Assembly (NCBI GenBank): GCA_009840525.1
Contig: VXNP01000153.1
Coordinates: 1 to 54,149, forward strand
DNA: 54,149 nt
Origin: Gammaproteobacteria bacterium
GTDB lineage: Bacteria > Gemmatimonadota > Gemmatimonadetes > Longimicrobiales > Gaopeijiaceae
Direction of reading: 5' to 3'
Under the pieces are notes generated by a model. It saw only the letters and a program-made list of their open reading frames with translations, searched no databases and was not told the origin of the DNA. Position 1 is the stretch's first letter. Each line of letters opens with the position of its first letter. A program made the position numbers and the translations under genes. This document shows positions 26,770 to 38,269 of the stretch, in pieces.

Positions 26770-27375
26770 TCAGAACCCGGTCGGCAGCGGCACGCCGAGC
26801 AGGACCATGAACACGAGGTAGATGAACCCGGCGAAGGCGAGCGGCACCGAGACCATCGTCCGCCACGAACGCTCGCCCGTCAGCCACATGAGGCCCACGA
26901 CGAGGAGCGGCACCGAGAGGACGGTTCCGAGCGGCGGCCAGATGAGGAGGAAGGTCGCGATCCAGGCTACGGCGATCCACACTCCGAGGAGCGGGGTTCG
27001 GCTCCCGGTGCCCTCGCCCGCGGCGGAGTCCGAGGAAACGTTTCCGCGGGAACGTGCGGCGCCCGCGGAAGAGTCCGAAGAGACGTTTCCGCGGGAACGC
27101 CCCACGCCCGATTCGTCGCCCGAGCCGCCAGCCGATCCATCGCCCGCCCCTCTCTCCCTGGCACCGCGCCAGCCTCGGATCGCGAGCGAGGCCGCGCAGG
27201 CGATCAGGAGCACCGCGAGCAGCCGGGGGAAGAAGGCCGGCCCCGGCGCACCGTCGGCGAGCGAAGGAGGATAGCCGCGCGAGTCGAGCAGGACCGCGGC
27301 TCCGATGGCGGCGAGCAGCCCCGTCTCCGTCAGGAGGCGCAGCGGAGGGCTCCCGCGCGCGGAGCGGCTACCCAT
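26770..27375 (-). CDS. tctB: Tripartite tricarboxylate transporter small permease TctB (with repeat-expanded linker)
   Basis: This 201-residue protein has the four helices of TctB, about 12-28, 44-60, 128-150 and 170-195. The ATG at 27375 overlaps the tctC stop (ATGGGTAG), so the start is well supported. The cytoplasmic linker between helices 2 and 3 (about 65-110) is expanded by a near-perfect 15-residue duplication containing RGNVSSDS twice. TctB proteins are usually about 150 residues, so this linker explains the extra length. It is unlikely to be needed for transport, but may vary between strains. Confidence 0.88.
   Translation of the reverse strand: MGSRSARGSPPLRLLTETGLLAAIGAAVLLDSRGYPPSLADGAPGPAFFPRLLAVLLIACAASLAIRGWRGARERGAGDGSAGGSGDESGVGRSRGNVSSDSSAGAARSRGNVSSDSAAGEGTGSRTPLLGVWIAVAWIATFLLIWPPLGTVLSVPLLVVGLMWLTGERSWRTMVSVPLAFAGFIYLVFMVLLGVPLPTGF
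27016..27099. repeat. 45-bp tandem repeat within tctB
   Basis: A 39-base block recurs at 27016-27054 and 27061-27099 (period 45, a multiple of three), with GACGTTTCCGCGGGAACG in one copy and one change in the other. It encodes a repeated RGNVSSDS linker. Confidence 0.85.
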
Positions 27376-28417
27376 CCAGGAATCCCAGCCGTCGCAGCAG
27401 GTCTCGGCTGGTCGTGACTTCCTCCGCCATCCAGGCCCCGAACGCGTCCGCATCCTCCATCGTCGCGAACTCGAGGGCGGCGCGCTCCATGTACTCCTGG
27501 AACCCGGGATCGTCGATCGCGGCCATGAGACGGGTGCGGATGTCGGACCGCGTCCCGGGGTCCAGCCCCGGCGGGCCCACCACCCCCCGCCAGTGGACGG
27601 GCTGGAGGTCGTAACCCTGGTCCGCATAGCTCGGGGTGTCCGGGAGCGCCTCGACGGGCATCGCGGTCCCAAGCACGCGCATCGTCCCCGCGCGCAGGTG
27701 CTCGCGCACGACGTTGTAGTTCGTGTGCGCCGCGTCGGTGTGGCCGCCGAGCGCCGCGACCACCGCGTCCGCCGACCCCTCGTAGGCGATCCAGCGGATA
27801 TCCGGATCCTCCGCCGCCGCCCGCAGCCGGGCGAAGCCGAGGAAATGGGCTGACGCGGCCCCGAACCCGGACACCGACACCTCGCCGGGCCGGGCGTGGG
27901 CGGCCTCGAACAGGTCTCCCAGCGTGCGGAAGGGGCTGTCGTCCCGCACCGCGACGAGGAAAGGATCGATCTGGATCCGGAGGATGGGCGTAAAGTCCTC
28001 CGGTGCGAACGGGATCCGCCCGGTCGCCATGTTCACCGTGCCGCTCGCCGTGAACACGCCCAGCACGTGGGGGTCCCCCGCGCGGCCCTGCATGTACTGC
28101 ATGCCAGCGGCCCCGGCCCCGCCCTGCCGCGTCATCACGGTCACGCGCTGCCCGCCGAAGTGCGGCGGCGCGGCATCGGCCAGCGCCCGCGAGAGGAGGT
28201 CAGAGGGCCCGCCGGGGGTCGCCCAGGAGACGATCTCGATGGGGCGGCTGGGGAATGCGGCGTCCTCCCCGCGTGAGGAACACGCAGCGGAGCCCAGCAG
28301 GACGAACGCGACGGCGAGGAGGCGGGGGAGGCTGGATGCGGACCGGGGCTCGCAGTTGCGCGAAAGGGCTGCGGCTTCGGGCCGAGGTGACGATGCGGTC
28401 GTTGGTCGATGTTTCAT
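27368..28417 (-). CDS. tctC: Tripartite tricarboxylate transporter substrate-binding lipoprotein TctC (Bug family)
   Basis: This 349-residue protein starts at the ATG at 28417. Its N-terminus is unusually long and charged before the hydrophobic segment, and the lipobox LGSAAC gives Cys46, so it is a lipoprotein. Bug-family features follow: PIEIVSWATPGGPSDLLSRALA near the start of the mature domain and the C-terminal RTRLMAAIDDPGFQEYM. It captures a tricarboxylate-like acid for TctA/TctB. Its stop overlaps the tctB start. An ATG 36 bases upstream is also possible but less likely. Confidence 0.92.
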   Translation of the reverse strand: MKHRPTTASSPRPEAAALSRNCEPRSASSLPRLLAVAFVLLGSAACSSRGEDAAFPSRPIEIVSWATPGGPSDLLSRALADAAPPHFGGQRVTVMTRQGGAGAAGMQYMQGRAGDPHVLGVFTASGTVNMATGRIPFAPEDFTPILRIQIDPFLVAVRDDSPFRTLGDLFEAAHARPGEVSVSGFGAASAHFLGFARLRAAAEDPDIRWIAYEGSADAVVAALGGHTDAAHTNYNVVREHLRAGTMRVLGTAMPVEALPDTPSYADQGYDLQPVHWRGVVGPPGLDPGTRSDIRTRLMAAIDDPGFQEYMERAALEFATMEDADAFGAWMAEEVTTSRDLLRRLGFLDG

Positions 28418-28679
28418 GCGGGGAATATGAGGTTCTCGTCGGGAGTCGGCCACCGGGAGGATTGGAGGGGGCTCGACGCGCTGGACCGTTTCGCAGTCCG
28501 TTCCATAGCCGCGCTGCCGCAGCGCTTCCGCCCACCAGACCCGGCCATTCGCCGCCGGTTATCGCGACGATGTCGTTGTTATGGACTTTGCAACTGCGCG
28601 TCGATCATGAAAAAAAATCGCACGTGACGAACTGATCCCTTAGATTGGTGCCGAATCCGATATTGGCCCGAGGGGCGTG

Positions 28680-30680
28680 ATGAGATTTCCCGAAGAACTG
28701 CTCCTGCTGCTACACAGCGAAGAGTCGGGCTATTTCGTGGCCATCCCCGAGTGGAGGATGTCTTGCGCGATGGCGGGCGGGGTACTTCTGGACCTCAGCC
28801 TGGAGAACCGCGTCGATGCCGACCTGGACTCGCTTGTTCTGGTCGACCCCACGCCAACCGGAGATTCCCTGCTGGATCCCACGCTGGAGGAGCTTGCCCG
28901 GGAAGAGAAGGTCCGTGCGCCGCGGTACTGGGTCGAGCGCATCGCCCGGCGGGCTGACGAGATCAGTGACGAGGCAATCCGCCGCCTGGTGGACAAGGGG
29001 ATCTTCGAGTCCGAGGCCGGCGGATTTTGGACACTGTCCAAGAAGGTGACGCGAACCGGCCACTACCCATTGGTGGACGGGACGGCCGGGGAGGAGATCA
29101 AGAGCCGGGTTTTCCGCGCGCTCTTCGACGGCGAGGTCCCGGAACCACGGGACGTGGCCCTCATCGGCCTTGTCAACTACTGCGGCGGTTTCCGGGCCAT
29201 GCTGGAGCCCGAGGAATACGAGGAAGCCGAGGGGCTCATCGAATTGTGGAGCGGAATGGACCTGATCGCGCGGGCGATCGCCATGGCCGTGCGCGACTCC
29301 TACCTGCCCCCCCAGAGCATGCGCGCCGCGCGACGCCGTCCGATGCCCGGGGTCAGCCTCTGGGACATGATCCGCTCGAAGTCGTTCAGGTCCGGCAACC
29401 TGCCGAAGTTCGTGGCGGAAACGGCCAGCGAGCTTGGACCGGTCTTCCGACTCAACGTGCCGGGCCGCAACATGGTGGTGCTCGCGGGCATCGAGACCAA
29501 CCGATGGGTCGCCAAGAAAGGGCGTTCCCACCTGCGGACCCGGGACTATCTGGAGGACTTTCAGGCCGAGTGGGGAACGGCACGGTCCATCGCCAGCATG
29601 GACGGAGCCGATCACTTCCGCATGCGCAGGATCGTGCGGGCCGGCAATTCCCAGTCGGTCGTAAAGGACCGGCTGGACGAAGTGTTCGCACTCGGACGGC
29701 GCTCGTTCGACGGATGGGGCATCGGGAAAGTGCTGCCGGGGGAGATGGCGTGCCAGAGGTTGCTCGGCGAACAGATCGCCCCACTCAGCGTGAGCATGGA
29801 GCCTTCCGGCATCCTCGACGACCTGCTCAAGTTCGAGTACCGGGCGCTGCTCGTCCACGGGCATCGGATGCTGCCCCGGTTCATGCTGCGCACGCCTCGA
29901 ATGAGGCGCTACAAGAAGCGCGTGCTGGAGCTGTACGCCCGGATCCACGCGTCCCACACGCCGGGCCAGCGGGAGGGCAAGCGGCGCGATCTGGTTGATG
30001 ACCTGATGGACCTGCACCAGGCCGATCCCCAGTTCCTGCCGGAGACCGACCTCGGATTCGCGTTCATCGCACCGATCATCGCGGGTCACTACCTCGGGAG
30101 CGCGATGGCGTTCGCGGTCTACGAGCTGCTGAAGAACCCGGGCTGCCGGAAGCAAATCGCGGCCGAAGCGGACGCGCTGTTCGAAGGCGGAGACCCGGCC
30201 GCCGAGGACCTCGACGCCTCGGCGACCGACGCGACCCGCCGGTTCGCCATGGAGGTGCTTCGGCTGCATCCGGTGATACCGGTGCACATGCGTACGGCGA
30301 TGAACTCGTTCGAAGTCGAGGGGATCGAGGTGCCGGCGCACAGCACGGTGCTGGTCGCGTTTCCCGCGACCCACTACATGGAGGAGTATTTCCCGGACCC
30401 GGAAACGTTCGACATCGACCGCCATGCGGAGCCCCGCAACGAGCACCGGCAGACCGGCGCTTACGTGCCCTTCGGCGTCGGCACGCACGTTTGCGGGGGA
30501 CAAGGCTGGACCCGGTTCCAGATGGCGGCCAACCTGCTGCTGGTCGCCCGTCACCTGGAACTCGAACTGGTGCCCCGCGACTACCGGCTCAAGCTGAGTT
30601 CACTGCCCAAGACGTGCCCCGACAGGAACTTCAAGTTTCGGGTGACCGGACACCGGCATCCGCTCGAACCTGCCACGTAG
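28680..30680 (+). CDS. Fusion protein: GPP34 domain plus cytochrome P450
   Basis: This 666-residue protein starts at an ATG four bases after AGGGG (a GTG directly before is possible). Residues 2-205 match the GPP34/GOLPH3-like domain, with PEELLLLLHS, GGVLLDLSLENRV, VDPTPTGDSLLD and the helical YPLVDGTAGEEIKSRV; in eukaryotes this domain binds phosphoinositide membranes. Residues 225-660 are a cytochrome P450 with ExxR (EVLR near 527) and the heme loop FGVGTHVCGGQ, Cys605. The usual I-helix (A/G)Gx(D/E)T is replaced by AGHYLGSA, with no acid-alcohol pair. A bacterial P450 needs redox partners, and none are adjacent. I infer a membrane-tethered or lipid-directed P450. Confidence 0.88.
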   Translation: MRFPEELLLLLHSEESGYFVAIPEWRMSCAMAGGVLLDLSLENRVDADLDSLVLVDPTPTGDSLLDPTLEELAREEKVRAPRYWVERIARRADEISDEAIRRLVDKGIFESEAGGFWTLSKKVTRTGHYPLVDGTAGEEIKSRVFRALFDGEVPEPRDVALIGLVNYCGGFRAMLEPEEYEEAEGLIELWSGMDLIARAIAMAVRDSYLPPQSMRAARRRPMPGVSLWDMIRSKSFRSGNLPKFVAETASELGPVFRLNVPGRNMVVLAGIETNRWVAKKGRSHLRTRDYLEDFQAEWGTARSIASMDGADHFRMRRIVRAGNSQSVVKDRLDEVFALGRRSFDGWGIGKVLPGEMACQRLLGEQIAPLSVSMEPSGILDDLLKFEYRALLVHGHRMLPRFMLRTPRMRRYKKRVLELYARIHASHTPGQREGKRRDLVDDLMDLHQADPQFLPETDLGFAFIAPIIAGHYLGSAMAFAVYELLKNPGCRKQIAAEADALFEGGDPAAEDLDASATDATRRFAMEVLRLHPVIPVHMRTAMNSFEVEGIEVPAHSTVLVAFPATHYMEEYFPDPETFDIDRHAEPRNEHRQTGAYVPFGVGTHVCGGQGWTRFQMAANLLLVARHLELELVPRDYRLKLSSLPKTCPDRNFKFRVTGHRHPLEPAT

Positions 30681-34888: not shown

Positions 34889-35425
34889 TCACCCCTCATC
34901 CCCGGAAATCAGCCTCCGCAGCACCGCATCCACCGCATCCTCCGCGAGCTGATCGAGTTCGTCGGGGCGGCGGTTCTGGACCGGGTGGGGCACCCACACG
35001 ATCTCCGGCTCGAAGCCGAGCGAGGGGATCTGGAAGGAGGCCGCCTCGCGGAAGGCGGTGGTGGCGATCAGGAGGCCGGGGAGGCCGCGATCGTCGAGGG
35101 CCTTGATGTCGTGCAGACCGCACGATACGCACGACCCTCAGTCGGCGAGCGCCTCCACGACCACGTCGGCGCCGGCGGCGATGTCGTCGAGGATCGCGTT
35201 CGTGGCGGGCTTGGCGTTGGTCGGCTTCGCGAAGCGCGCGGTGGCGATGCCCCGGGCGTGGAGCCGTGTCTCGAGGCAGTCGAGGAACTCGTCGGCGCGG
35301 GACTTGCCGATGTCGAAGAGCGCCACCGTCCTGCCGTGCAGCGACGCAGGGGGCTTGCGCCGCGGGCGCGTTGCGGGCGCGGTCTCGGAGGTGGGGTCGT
35401 GCAGGGTGACGGCGGATTCGGTCAT
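34889..35425 (-). CDS. UGSC-family selenoprotein, Sec at codon 96 (in-frame TGA)
   Basis: Read through the TGA at 35138-35140, this is a 178-residue protein containing the motif ALAD-U-GSCVSCGLHD. I recognise it as the UGSC family, named for the Sec-Gly-Ser-Cys motif. Homology continues on both sides of the TGA in the same frame, up to a TGA at 34889, so it is not a pseudogene. A hairpin immediately downstream of the UGA has a GGUCU apical loop at bases 22-26 (UGA's U = 1). I counted the same spacing for E. coli fdhF. The start overlaps the upstream gene's stop (ATGA). Its two cysteines (CVSC) plus Sec suggest a redox role. The function is unknown. SelA, SelB, SelD and tRNA-Sec must lie elsewhere. 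Confidence 0.9.
35109..35125 (-). promoter_or_regulatory. Bacterial-type SECIS hairpin within the selenoprotein gene
   Basis: On the minus strand TCGTGC (35120-35125) pairs perfectly with GCACGA (35109-35114) around the loop GGTCT (35115-35119). A second copy of TCGTGC at 35129-35134, with its preceding G, could pair with the same 3' arm. The loop and its distance from UGA match fdhF, which binds SelB. Confidence 0.85.
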
Positions 35426-36867
35426 TCGGTGATCTCTCTGGTGACGGGGTGGGATTCCTCGAACAGGCGACCCCCCGGCCAGCCCGACAGGACGGCCGAG
35501 AACAGCCCGGCGGGACCCCCGGCGCGCACTAGCAGAAGGGCACCGGGATGGAACTTGGGGATGCGCTGGCCCGCGCGGGAGGGGGGCATTCCCTCGGCGA
35601 CGCCGTCGGCGCCCGCGGCCACCTTCTCGCCCGGGAGCAGCAACTCGTCGTGGAGCGCGCTGGTGATCCGGGCTCGGTCCCATCCCGCCTCACGGTAGAT
35701 GGCGTAGTGTTCGGGTGACAGGACCAGAACGGCGGCCGCCCACTCGCACAGCTTGGGGTGTCCCACCGCCTGCAGCCCCATGGCCAGGGAGCGGGTGAGT
35801 TCGCCTGGCGCGCGCGCCTTCTGGTCGGTCACGCCCTGGATTCCGTCGCCGGCGAACACCGTCACTGCGCTCCTTCCGGCAGCTATTCCGCGCGAGGCGG
35901 CCAGCGGTTCCCAGCCATCGTCGCCCTCATCCTCCGCGAAGCAGAACGTGTACTTGCCCGGAGAGCCCAGCGTCGCGCGGTCGATTTCGCCGGGCCGCCC
36001 TCCGCCCACGTTGCGGACCACGAGGTTCACCGCGCGGCCGATGGTGGCGTTGGCCCGGTTCCCCTGTCCGAGCGCGTTGAGTCCGGAGTTCATGCCGATG
36101 CGCTTCGCGATGGGGCCGTTGACGATGATCACCGGGCTCGAGAAGCAGGTGCTGCAGGTGACGCCGTGCAGGGTGAACCCCGGGTCCAGGGCAGCCTCGA
36201 GGGCCGTCAGCACGACCGGCATGTATTCGGGGCGGCACCCGGCCATGACGGCGTTGATGGCGACCTTCTCGACGGTGCAGGGCGCCAGCTCGGGGGGGAC
36301 CCGGCCGATGATCTCGTGCGGGTCGCGGCGCGTGCCGCCCAGCATGCGCAGGATGCGCTCGGGCGTCGGCGGGACGACCGGGAGGCCGTCGCTCCAGCCG
36401 CGGTCGTAGCACGCCTCGATTGCGTCGGCGCCGGGCGCGACCTCGACCGTGCGGGCGCGGATTCCGGTTTCGCCGAAGCGCACCCGCAGGGCCTCCCCGA
36501 CCCCCGGCTCCACCGAACGGGAGCCACAGCCGGGCCGGTGGAGCGGCAGTCCCGCGCCCAGCGTGGGGATGGCCGTGAGCGCACGCCAGTCTTCGCGACT
36601 CCAGCCCACCGTGCGGCCGGTTTCCGCACCGCCCTCCAGCCGGATCAGCGTCGGCACCGTCTCGACGGCGAGGTGGAAGGAGCGCTCAAGGGCGCGGTCG
36701 TCCACGGTGGCGGCGGCGAGCCCGGGGCCCAGGAAGGCGCCGTCGTCCTGCCAGCAGATGGTCAGCGGATGGCCGGCCTGGTGGATCTCGGCGAGGACGG
36801 GCACCGCCAGGTGGCAGGTCTCGCACTCGTCCTTCACGACGGCGACGTAGGTGGCGGATTCGGACAT
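35422..36867 (-). CDS. Thioredoxin-like protein encoded with the selenoprotein
   Basis: This 481-residue protein begins with a thioredoxin-like domain (about 1-95): VKDECETCHLAVPVLAEI, CxxC at Cys15 and Cys18, with VETVPTLIRLEGG as the cis-Pro strand. A separate domain follows (about 150-470), with CYDRGWSDGLPVVPPT and a second motif CSTCFSSPVIIVNGPI near 245, both Cys-bearing. I cannot name the second domain. The operon with the UGSC selenoprotein suggests the two exchange electrons. It lies just downstream of the convergently unrelated ATPase gene on the same strand, three bases from its stop. Confidence 0.78.
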   Translation of the reverse strand: MSESATYVAVVKDECETCHLAVPVLAEIHQAGHPLTICWQDDGAFLGPGLAAATVDDRALERSFHLAVETVPTLIRLEGGAETGRTVGWSREDWRALTAIPTLGAGLPLHRPGCGSRSVEPGVGEALRVRFGETGIRARTVEVAPGADAIEACYDRGWSDGLPVVPPTPERILRMLGGTRRDPHEIIGRVPPELAPCTVEKVAINAVMAGCRPEYMPVVLTALEAALDPGFTLHGVTCSTCFSSPVIIVNGPIAKRIGMNSGLNALGQGNRANATIGRAVNLVVRNVGGGRPGEIDRATLGSPGKYTFCFAEDEGDDGWEPLAASRGIAAGRSAVTVFAGDGIQGVTDQKARAPGELTRSLAMGLQAVGHPKLCEWAAAVLVLSPEHYAIYREAGWDRARITSALHDELLLPGEKVAAGADGVAEGMPPSRAGQRIPKFHPGALLLVRAGGPAGLFSAVLSGWPGGRLFEESHPVTREITE

Positions 36868-36870
36868 CCT

Positions 36871-38049
36871 TCACACCGCCTCGGTCCGGAAGAACGAATC
36901 GGGGCCCCGAATCCGCGTCAGCGGCAACGCAGTGATCCCTTCCGCGACCGGGAACTCACGGTTGCCGGGATAGACCACCCAGAGATGTGCCAGCTCGAGA
37001 TCGTTCATGACGACGCGCATGGACTTCGTGGTGCGGGGCGTTTCCGTGCACTTGAACTCGAAGCCCCACCGTCGGCCCCGGCGCAGCAGGAGGAGGTCCA
37101 GTTCCGCCCCTCGCTGGGTTCCGTAGAAATACGCGTCGCGCTGGCCGTGGGCGATCAGAGTCTGCTCCAGGGCGAAACCCTCCCAACTCGCCCCGTACGC
37201 GGGATGCACGGCGAGCTCGTGGCTCTCTTCGAGGCCGAGGAGGAAGTGCAGAATCCCACTGTCGCGCAGATAGACCTTGGGTGACTTCACCAGCCGCTTG
37301 CCCAGGTTCGCGAACCAGGGACGCAGGACGCGGATCATGAACGCGCCCTCCAGGAGATCGCGGTAGCGGTTGACGGTTCGCGCGTCCGTGTCCATGGAGC
37401 GCGCCAGGCGCGAGGCGTTCCAGGTCTGGCCGTGCACGTGGGCCAGCATTCTCCAGAAGCGGCCGAGCGCGGCGGGCGAGACGGTCGATCCCAGTCCCGC
37501 GATGTCACGCTCCAGGAACGTTCGCGAGAACGACTCCATCCATCGCGTCCAGGCACCCGCCGAGCGGGCCTGATACGCTCGGGGAAAGCCGCCGCGCATC
37601 CAAAGCCGATCGAGAGAGTTCGGTTGCACCTCCTCCAGCGAGAAGCCGGTCGCGTCCACGAAGAGGATTCTCCCCGCCAGCGACTCCGACACTCCCTTCA
37701 CCAGATCCCAGGAGGCGCTGCCCAGGAGCAGGAAGACCGCCTTCCGCTCCGGGTCGTCGCACACGGGCCGGAGGGTCTCGAAGAGCTGCGGGAGGCGTTG
37801 CACCTCGTCGATCACGACCAGTCCCTCGCGGTGCCCCAGCAAGCGGGCTGGAGTCCGAACGAGCGCCTCCCGGTCGGTGGCCACCTCGAGGTCGAAGATG
37901 GTGGCGGGGCCGGGCCAGGACGCCGCGATCTCGCGGGCCAGCGTGGTCTTGCCGACCTGGCGGGCACCCAGCAGGGCCACCGCGGGGGATTCTGCGAGGC
38001 CGCGGGTGATCTGGGTGGTCAATGCGGCGCGAGAGATAGTTTGTTGCAA
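36871..38049 (-). CDS. ATPase with DUF4143 domain
   Basis: This AAA-type ATPase is about 392 residues if it starts at TTG 38049, which places QQTISRAALTTQITRGL directly before the core as in relatives. A frame from ATG 38124 would add 25 Cys-containing, unconserved residues. Walker A GARQVGKT is at 28-35 and Walker B VVIDEVQ near 82. The C-terminal DUF4143 region has AELDLLLLRRGRRWGFEFKC, a nuclease-like (PDDEXK) fragment whose catalytic residues D and E-x-K are kept. Such genes are scattered in bacteria, frequently as mobile or defence-related neighbours. Function is not established. Confidence 0.82.
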   Translation of the reverse strand: MQQTISRAALTTQITRGLAESPAVALLGARQVGKTTLAREIAASWPGPATIFDLEVATDREALVRTPARLLGHREGLVVIDEVQRLPQLFETLRPVCDDPERKAVFLLLGSASWDLVKGVSESLAGRILFVDATGFSLEEVQPNSLDRLWMRGGFPRAYQARSAGAWTRWMESFSRTFLERDIAGLGSTVSPAALGRFWRMLAHVHGQTWNASRLARSMDTDARTVNRYRDLLEGAFMIRVLRPWFANLGKRLVKSPKVYLRDSGILHFLLGLEESHELAVHPAYGASWEGFALEQTLIAHGQRDAYFYGTQRGAELDLLLLRRGRRWGFEFKCTETPRTTKSMRVVMNDLELAHLWVVYPGNREFPVAEGITALPLTRIRGPDSFFRTEAV

Positions 38050-38269
38050 TTTCGTCTTTCCATAGCATGATTTACAACAATCTAGTCCGCTCGCTTGGTC
38101 GTCCGCAACACCAAGCTGCCCCAAGTGACCAACCCCGGGGTCCCCACCGCAAGGCGGCCACTGCCTGTTGCGCGGCAGCGAAACCGCGCAATTTGCCCGG
38201 TGCGTTCGACCACCAATAACCCTGATTCGCGACGGATCCTGTTCCGACAGCCCAAGGGAGGAGGAAAAG

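Follow-up and report, generated by a model that had tools for sequence, protein, structure and literature searches.

A UGSC-family selenoprotein gene and its upstream neighbour as a very probable two-part enzyme with likely kinship to glycine reductase

What does an in-frame TGA mean in the middle of an otherwise continuous gene, and what might the protein that contains it do? These questions are raised by a locus within the 54,149-nucleotide stretch of DNA analyzed here (the window), in which a gene on the minus strand at positions 34889–35425 runs from a start ATG at 35425 to a terminal TGA at 34891–34889 and, when read through an internal TGA, specifies a product of 178 amino acids and a stop. 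The internal TGA lies at codon 96 (35140–35138, minus strand), as the first-pass annotation had claimed, and the gene coordinates given there are exact; the residue stands within the motif AD-U-GSCVSC. That annotation had also placed the protein in the UGSC family, which is confirmed by a match to PF24696 of 122.1 bits (E = 3.4e-35; gathering score, 25 bits) that aligns residues 8–172 with positions 2–170 of the 172 in the model. The score against the UGSC_fam equivalog model NF041046 is 115.8 bits, 9 below the naming cut-off of 125, and the protein is therefore assigned to PF24696 and not to the equivalog. Its nearest named relatives come mostly from Gemmatimonadota MAGs, and a sequence search of the PDB with UGSC returned no convincing relative.

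UGSC selenoproteins were described no later than 2008 (PMC2398784), and that account ranks them with the most abundant selenoprotein families of bacteria in aquatic metagenomes. In 2016, a survey covering over 5,200 organisms recorded 33 UGSC genes in 26 of these (PMC5029168), and the family appears, without a function, on a 2026 list of 119 prokaryotic selenoprotein families (PMC13188914). The family as described (PF24696/NF041046) shares with the window protein the same domain, the U/C-G-S-C motif and a selenocysteine encoded by UGA with a SECIS, but carries no assigned partner or function, both of which are proposed here. The window gene is a new member of this known family and is ordinary for it; the system that surrounds the gene is not.

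The UGA at codon 96 is almost certainly read as selenocysteine, as proposed when the TGA was first noticed, since the triplet is kept in all homologues from genome contigs, a conserved hairpin follows it, and the genome contains selA, selB, selC and selD. The TGA is present at the Sec codon in 80/80 of these homologues, which represent Gemmatimonadota and Alpha-, Beta- and other proteobacteria, and in 81/81 sequences when the window gene is counted. Exactly one in-frame TGA is also found in 50/50 other UGSC matches from the phylum (395 genomes drawn), one of which is weak and partial. Elsewhere the residue is Cys, as in the CGSC forms of Natrinema, Arthrobacter, Embleya and Variovorax. The suggestion that the TGA arose through sequencing error or a pseudogene lesion, or is a genuine stop followed by a fortuitous frame, has nothing in its favour and deserves next to no credence, given that the TGA falls at the same codon in every one of the 81 sequences, that both protein and hairpin are conserved past it, and that the Sec machinery is present. 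Pseudogene and sequencing error are ruled out by this conservation, and homologues ending at the TGA with no continuation did not occur. The genome to which the window belongs comprises 3.99 Mb and is 98% complete, and all four components are found in it: SelA (E = 8e-131), SelB (over its cut-off, with a match that spans 340/581 positions and lies near a contig end), SelD (E = 6e-92) and tRNA-Sec (68.3 bits, anticodon UCA).

The SECIS hairpin follows directly after the TGA. Its apical part (35109–35125, minus strand) consists of a stem formed by bases 16–21 and 27–32, counted from the U of UGA, and a GGUCU loop at bases 22–26 (35119–35115), in agreement with the first-pass annotation. The spacing in E. 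coli fdhF serves as the comparison for GGUCU at these bases. Among 75 distinct UGSC sequences, the stem pairs 16/32, 17/31, 19/29, 20/28 and 21/27 are invariant, and pair 18/30 is G-C in 50, G-U in 15, A-U in 10 and A-C in none, a covariation with a Fisher p of 4e-6, uncorrected for the relatedness of the sequences. Both letters of pair 18/30 are synonymous third codon positions, and synonymous-codon identity in the UGSC gene peaks in windows starting at codons 99–102. An Rfam scan of the whole window gave no match. The expectation that automatic annotation mishandles such genes is borne out on a plasmid of Acidovorax sp. T1, where the annotated CDS of a TGA-containing UGSC homologue is a 291-base 'hypothetical protein' and breaks off at the Sec codon.

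These results support the first-pass interpretation of the gene, but three things were overlooked there: the neighbouring gene as a likely functional partner, the selenoprotein form of this partner in other bacteria, and the relation of the UGSC domain to GrdB/PrdB. Directly upstream lies an open reading frame of 481 amino acids (35422–36867, minus strand), whose stop shares the letters ATGA at 35425–35422 with the UGSC start. Nearly all of the 80 loci show the partner just upstream of UGSC and in the same orientation, the exceptions being two loci that start inside UGSC and L093, in which the partner is 8 kb off; the ATGA overlap of stop and start recurs in 51/75 loci. The C-terminal domain of the partner is joined to UGSC by an open linker in 16 betaproteobacterial ORFs, and a partner match adjoins UGSC in 6/6 plasmid records that contain it, haloarchaea and actinobacteria among them. 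The pair is also present in a cultured organism, Reyranella aquatilis KCTC 52223. Because of the adjacency, the fusions and the plasmid pairs, UGSC most likely works with the partner, and judging from these sequence patterns the two very probably make up a two-part enzyme. In its available part, the account of the GOS survey (PMC2398784) reports a cysteine-containing domain, 'Unknown_1', fused to UGSC in aquatic bacteria, which is probably the partner C-terminal domain; that part mentions neither a thioredoxin domain, nor a Sec form, nor the neighbour relation. Just upstream of the partner is an AAA_14/DUF4143 ATPase gene (36871–38124, minus strand), which was not observed to recur as a neighbour.

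The partner protein has no match in Pfam or NCBIfam, and a sequence search of the PDB with it found no relative. A fold search of its model shows that the partner begins with a predicted thioredoxin-fold domain (residues 1–100; 36568–36867, minus strand) bearing a CETC motif (Cys15, Cys18): thioredoxins are retrieved at Z about 10 across 83–100 residues, and PF13098 weakly matches 16/34 partner members. In the class of genome G396, a partner with the thioredoxin domain was found in G396 alone of 229 genomes. The C-terminal domain, from about residue 126 to 481 (35425–36492, minus strand), forms a family of its own that is marked by the motifs WxDGLPVVPPT, NAVMAGCxPEY and GxGxxANxxIGR; since the matches in the fold search were filled by the thioredoxin domain, its fold is not claimed to be new. 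Invariant cysteines are also present in the partner.

One position of the partner appears to be a second selenocysteine site in other genomes. The window protein contains Cys114 there (PG-C-GS; 36526–36528, minus strand), and across 73 loci the codon is TGA in 13, TGC in 52 and TGT in 8, with no other codon. The 13 TGA-form partners (PG-U-GS) are all betaproteobacterial. Synonymous identity over codons +5 to +11 is 0.955 in the TGA form, the top window of the gene (gene mean, 0.562; sd, 0.097), and 0.498 in the Cys form. A hairpin of seven pairs with one bulge and a CGGGGU loop occupies bases 16–36 of the TGA-form genes, and its pairs are kept in 13/13, with one compensatory change from G-C to A-U in L112. 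As 35/500 shuffles reach a single covarying pair, that pair carries little weight alone, and the case for a selenoprotein rests on the exchange of Cys and Sec together with the synonymous constraint. It is proposed on these grounds that the partner in 13 betaproteobacterial genomes is a selenoprotein with a SECIS-like hairpin. The PG-U-GS family is missing from the 119 selenoprotein families listed in 2026 (PMC13188914) and, judged by that list, would be a family so far unlisted, which would enlarge the known set by one. Standard annotation shortens UGSC and partner genes or leaves them 'hypothetical'.

The kind of reaction that such a pair might catalyze is suggested by a distant relation to glycine reductase. 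When UGSC members are scanned singly, 34/35 weakly match the GrdB model TIGR01917 (best E, 4e-5) and 29/35 weakly match the GrdF model (best E, 8e-6); the window protein scores 13.3 bits against TIGR01917, for which the curated cut-off is 602.2, and only its residues 82–152 match. Alignment by hhalign with a GRDB-family set, made up of proteins that were gathered from the same genomes and translated across their TGA codons, places Sec on Sec, with UGTCTRC against UGSCVSC, and the GxP and HP motifs match. A broader alignment of UGSC gives a probability of 93.1% and a score of 54.5, again with Sec on Sec, compared with a best score of 25.4 among 21 unrelated control families. The homologous stretch covers only about 70 residues, and the N-terminal part of GrdB is missing in UGSC. 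Taken as profile evidence, these matches make a remote homology highly likely between the UGSC domain and the domain that carries Sec in selenoprotein B of the glycine, sarcosine, betaine and D-proline reductases.

GrdB, GrdF and GrdH (TIGR01917, PF07355) and PrdB resemble UGSC in having UG[ST]CxxC after a strand, GxP/HP downstream and a link to thioredoxin. In contrast to these proteins, UGSC lacks the remainder of GrdB, is accompanied by a partner without detectable GrdE homology, and has undergone a large paralogous expansion in betaproteobacteria. The partner gave no match to PF09338 (GrdE/PrdA type), and hhalign of its C-terminal domain against real GrdE (PF09338) returned a probability of 0.6%; the candidate view of this domain as a GrdE homologue was dropped because no profile homology was detected. 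Numerous GRDB/PrdB-like genes occur in alpha- and betaproteobacterial genomes (L174–L203), where PF07355 sees them only up to the Sec codon; in 27/28 examined, a TGA lies no more than two codons from where the PF07355 match ends.

The paralogues are abundant in betaproteobacteria, with up to 35 UGSC copies per genome (nearly all, among the matches listed, with one TGA) and up to 33 matches per genome for the partner C-terminal domain alone, counts that derive from drafts without quality figures and are possibly inflated or split. UGSC copies adjoin C-terminal domain copies in 20 regions from betaproteobacterial genomes, and most paralogous pairs have no thioredoxin domain. Such copy numbers suggest many substrates, one per pair, and would make some unstudied betaproteobacteria unusually selenoprotein-rich. 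Thioredoxin genes are found beside some pairs: a plasmid of Arthrobacter sp. ERGS1:01 carries the row trxB-trxA-partner-UGSC, in which the partner is without a thioredoxin domain, and in Variovorax sp. SRS16 trxB is near a partner-UGSC pair. Only two records show a thioredoxin or TrxB gene in direct line with the pair, and relatives of such genes by other pairs are few. The same Arthrobacter plasmid (L209, 1507–2322) encodes a Cys-form UGSC fused to a NifU-like C-terminal domain.

The AlphaFold model of UGSC (pLDDT 90.5) is made up of five alternating strand-helix units, matches flavodoxin, CheY and lumazine-synthase-like folds, and has Sec96 where the helix following strand 88–94 begins. The modelled fold speaks against a thioredoxin fold, and the fact that thioredoxin is missing from the list of matches is no proof of this. 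The point bears on the main rival interpretation, in which UGSC and its partner are an ordinary thiol-disulfide/peroxide redox couple with no carbon-bond chemistry and the thioredoxin domain of the partner reduces a selenenyl-sulfide formed on UGSC by peroxide or disulfide. Such a couple would make use of the CxxC of the thioredoxin domain and the UxxC of UGSC, and PMC2398784 proposes that UGSC acts in redox chemistry and probably adopts a thioredoxin-like fold. It is nevertheless judged unlikely, as the strand-helix alternation and the fold matches of the model disagree with it, the Sec of UGSC aligns with that of GrdB, the thioredoxin domain is missing from most paralogous pairs, and the number of copies per genome, up to 35, is easier to reconcile with diverse substrates than with a general antioxidant.

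A thioredoxin-dependent selenoreductase, with Sec as the nucleophile, is instead preferred with moderate confidence. The window gene would supply the selenocysteine subunit and the 481-amino acid upstream gene the other subunit. First, the C-terminal domain of the partner would hold a small substrate, whose carbon or other electrophilic center would be attacked by the selenolate of Sec96, located in UGxC at the helix start after a strand. The resulting selenoether or selenenyl-sulfide would then be resolved by the UxxC cysteine and electrons from thioredoxin, delivered either by the partner's own thioredoxin domain with Cys/Sec114 as a relay or by free TrxA. Overall, the substrate would be reduced or reductively cleaved in a reaction that depends on thioredoxin. 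Within this scheme thioredoxin is the likely electron donor, and carbon-heteroatom cleavage via an Se-C intermediate is put forward tentatively. Glycine reductase itself takes electrons from thioredoxin and breaks an Se-C bond (PMC10298544).

It has to be considered whether Sec acts as a ligand and not as a nucleophile, with the pair handling a metal, metalloid or selenium compound for detoxification or delivery. Several recent selenoprotein families have been proposed to be metal binders (PMC13188914), and the invariant cysteines of the partner would suit such a role; this possibility is considered very improbable, since no metal transport or resistance genes recur beside the pair in the crude gene calls and the environment of the Sec site is GrdB-like. 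The selenoreductase reading finds a parallel in farB/farE of Cloacibacillus porcorum, likewise a two-gene pair with a GrdB-like selenoprotein, there joined by a non-pyruvoyl partner. For that pair, loss of a leaving group from a small carboxylate has been proposed, the GrdB-like protein cleaving the C-F bond of fluoroacetate with displacement of fluoride (PMC10838667). In contrast to the UGSC pair, whose partner belongs to a different family, farB/farE are GrdB/GrdE homologues from an anaerobe. Together, the fixed partner, the link to glycine reductase and the supply of thioredoxin give UGSC a testable biochemical hypothesis. In its fullest form, the proposal envisages numerous two-part selenoreductases that depend on thioredoxin and share ancestry with glycine reductase, expanded to dozens of copies per genome in some betaproteobacteria with one small substrate per copy, a thioredoxin-bearing partner that is an unlisted selenoprotein family, and in some bacteria an electron relay of two selenocysteines within a single enzyme; this form is regarded as evenly balanced.

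Gene calls based on the longest ORF produce many antisense ORFs in this GC-rich DNA, and neighbour statistics beyond the pair are therefore not taken as evidence. A link to TctC/Bug tripartite tricarboxylate transporters, candidates for which are present in 20/20 betaproteobacterial regions yet not above background, was dropped because each of the genomes concerned contains no fewer than 115 such candidates, and some as many as about 1,000. The window has a TctC-type tripartite tricarboxylate receptor gene of its own (27371–28453, minus strand). Close to it, on the plus strand at 28677–30677, is a 667-amino acid ORF that combines GPP34 (Golgi phosphoprotein 3; residues 5–205) with cytochrome P450 (residues 419–635) in an unusual-looking fusion.
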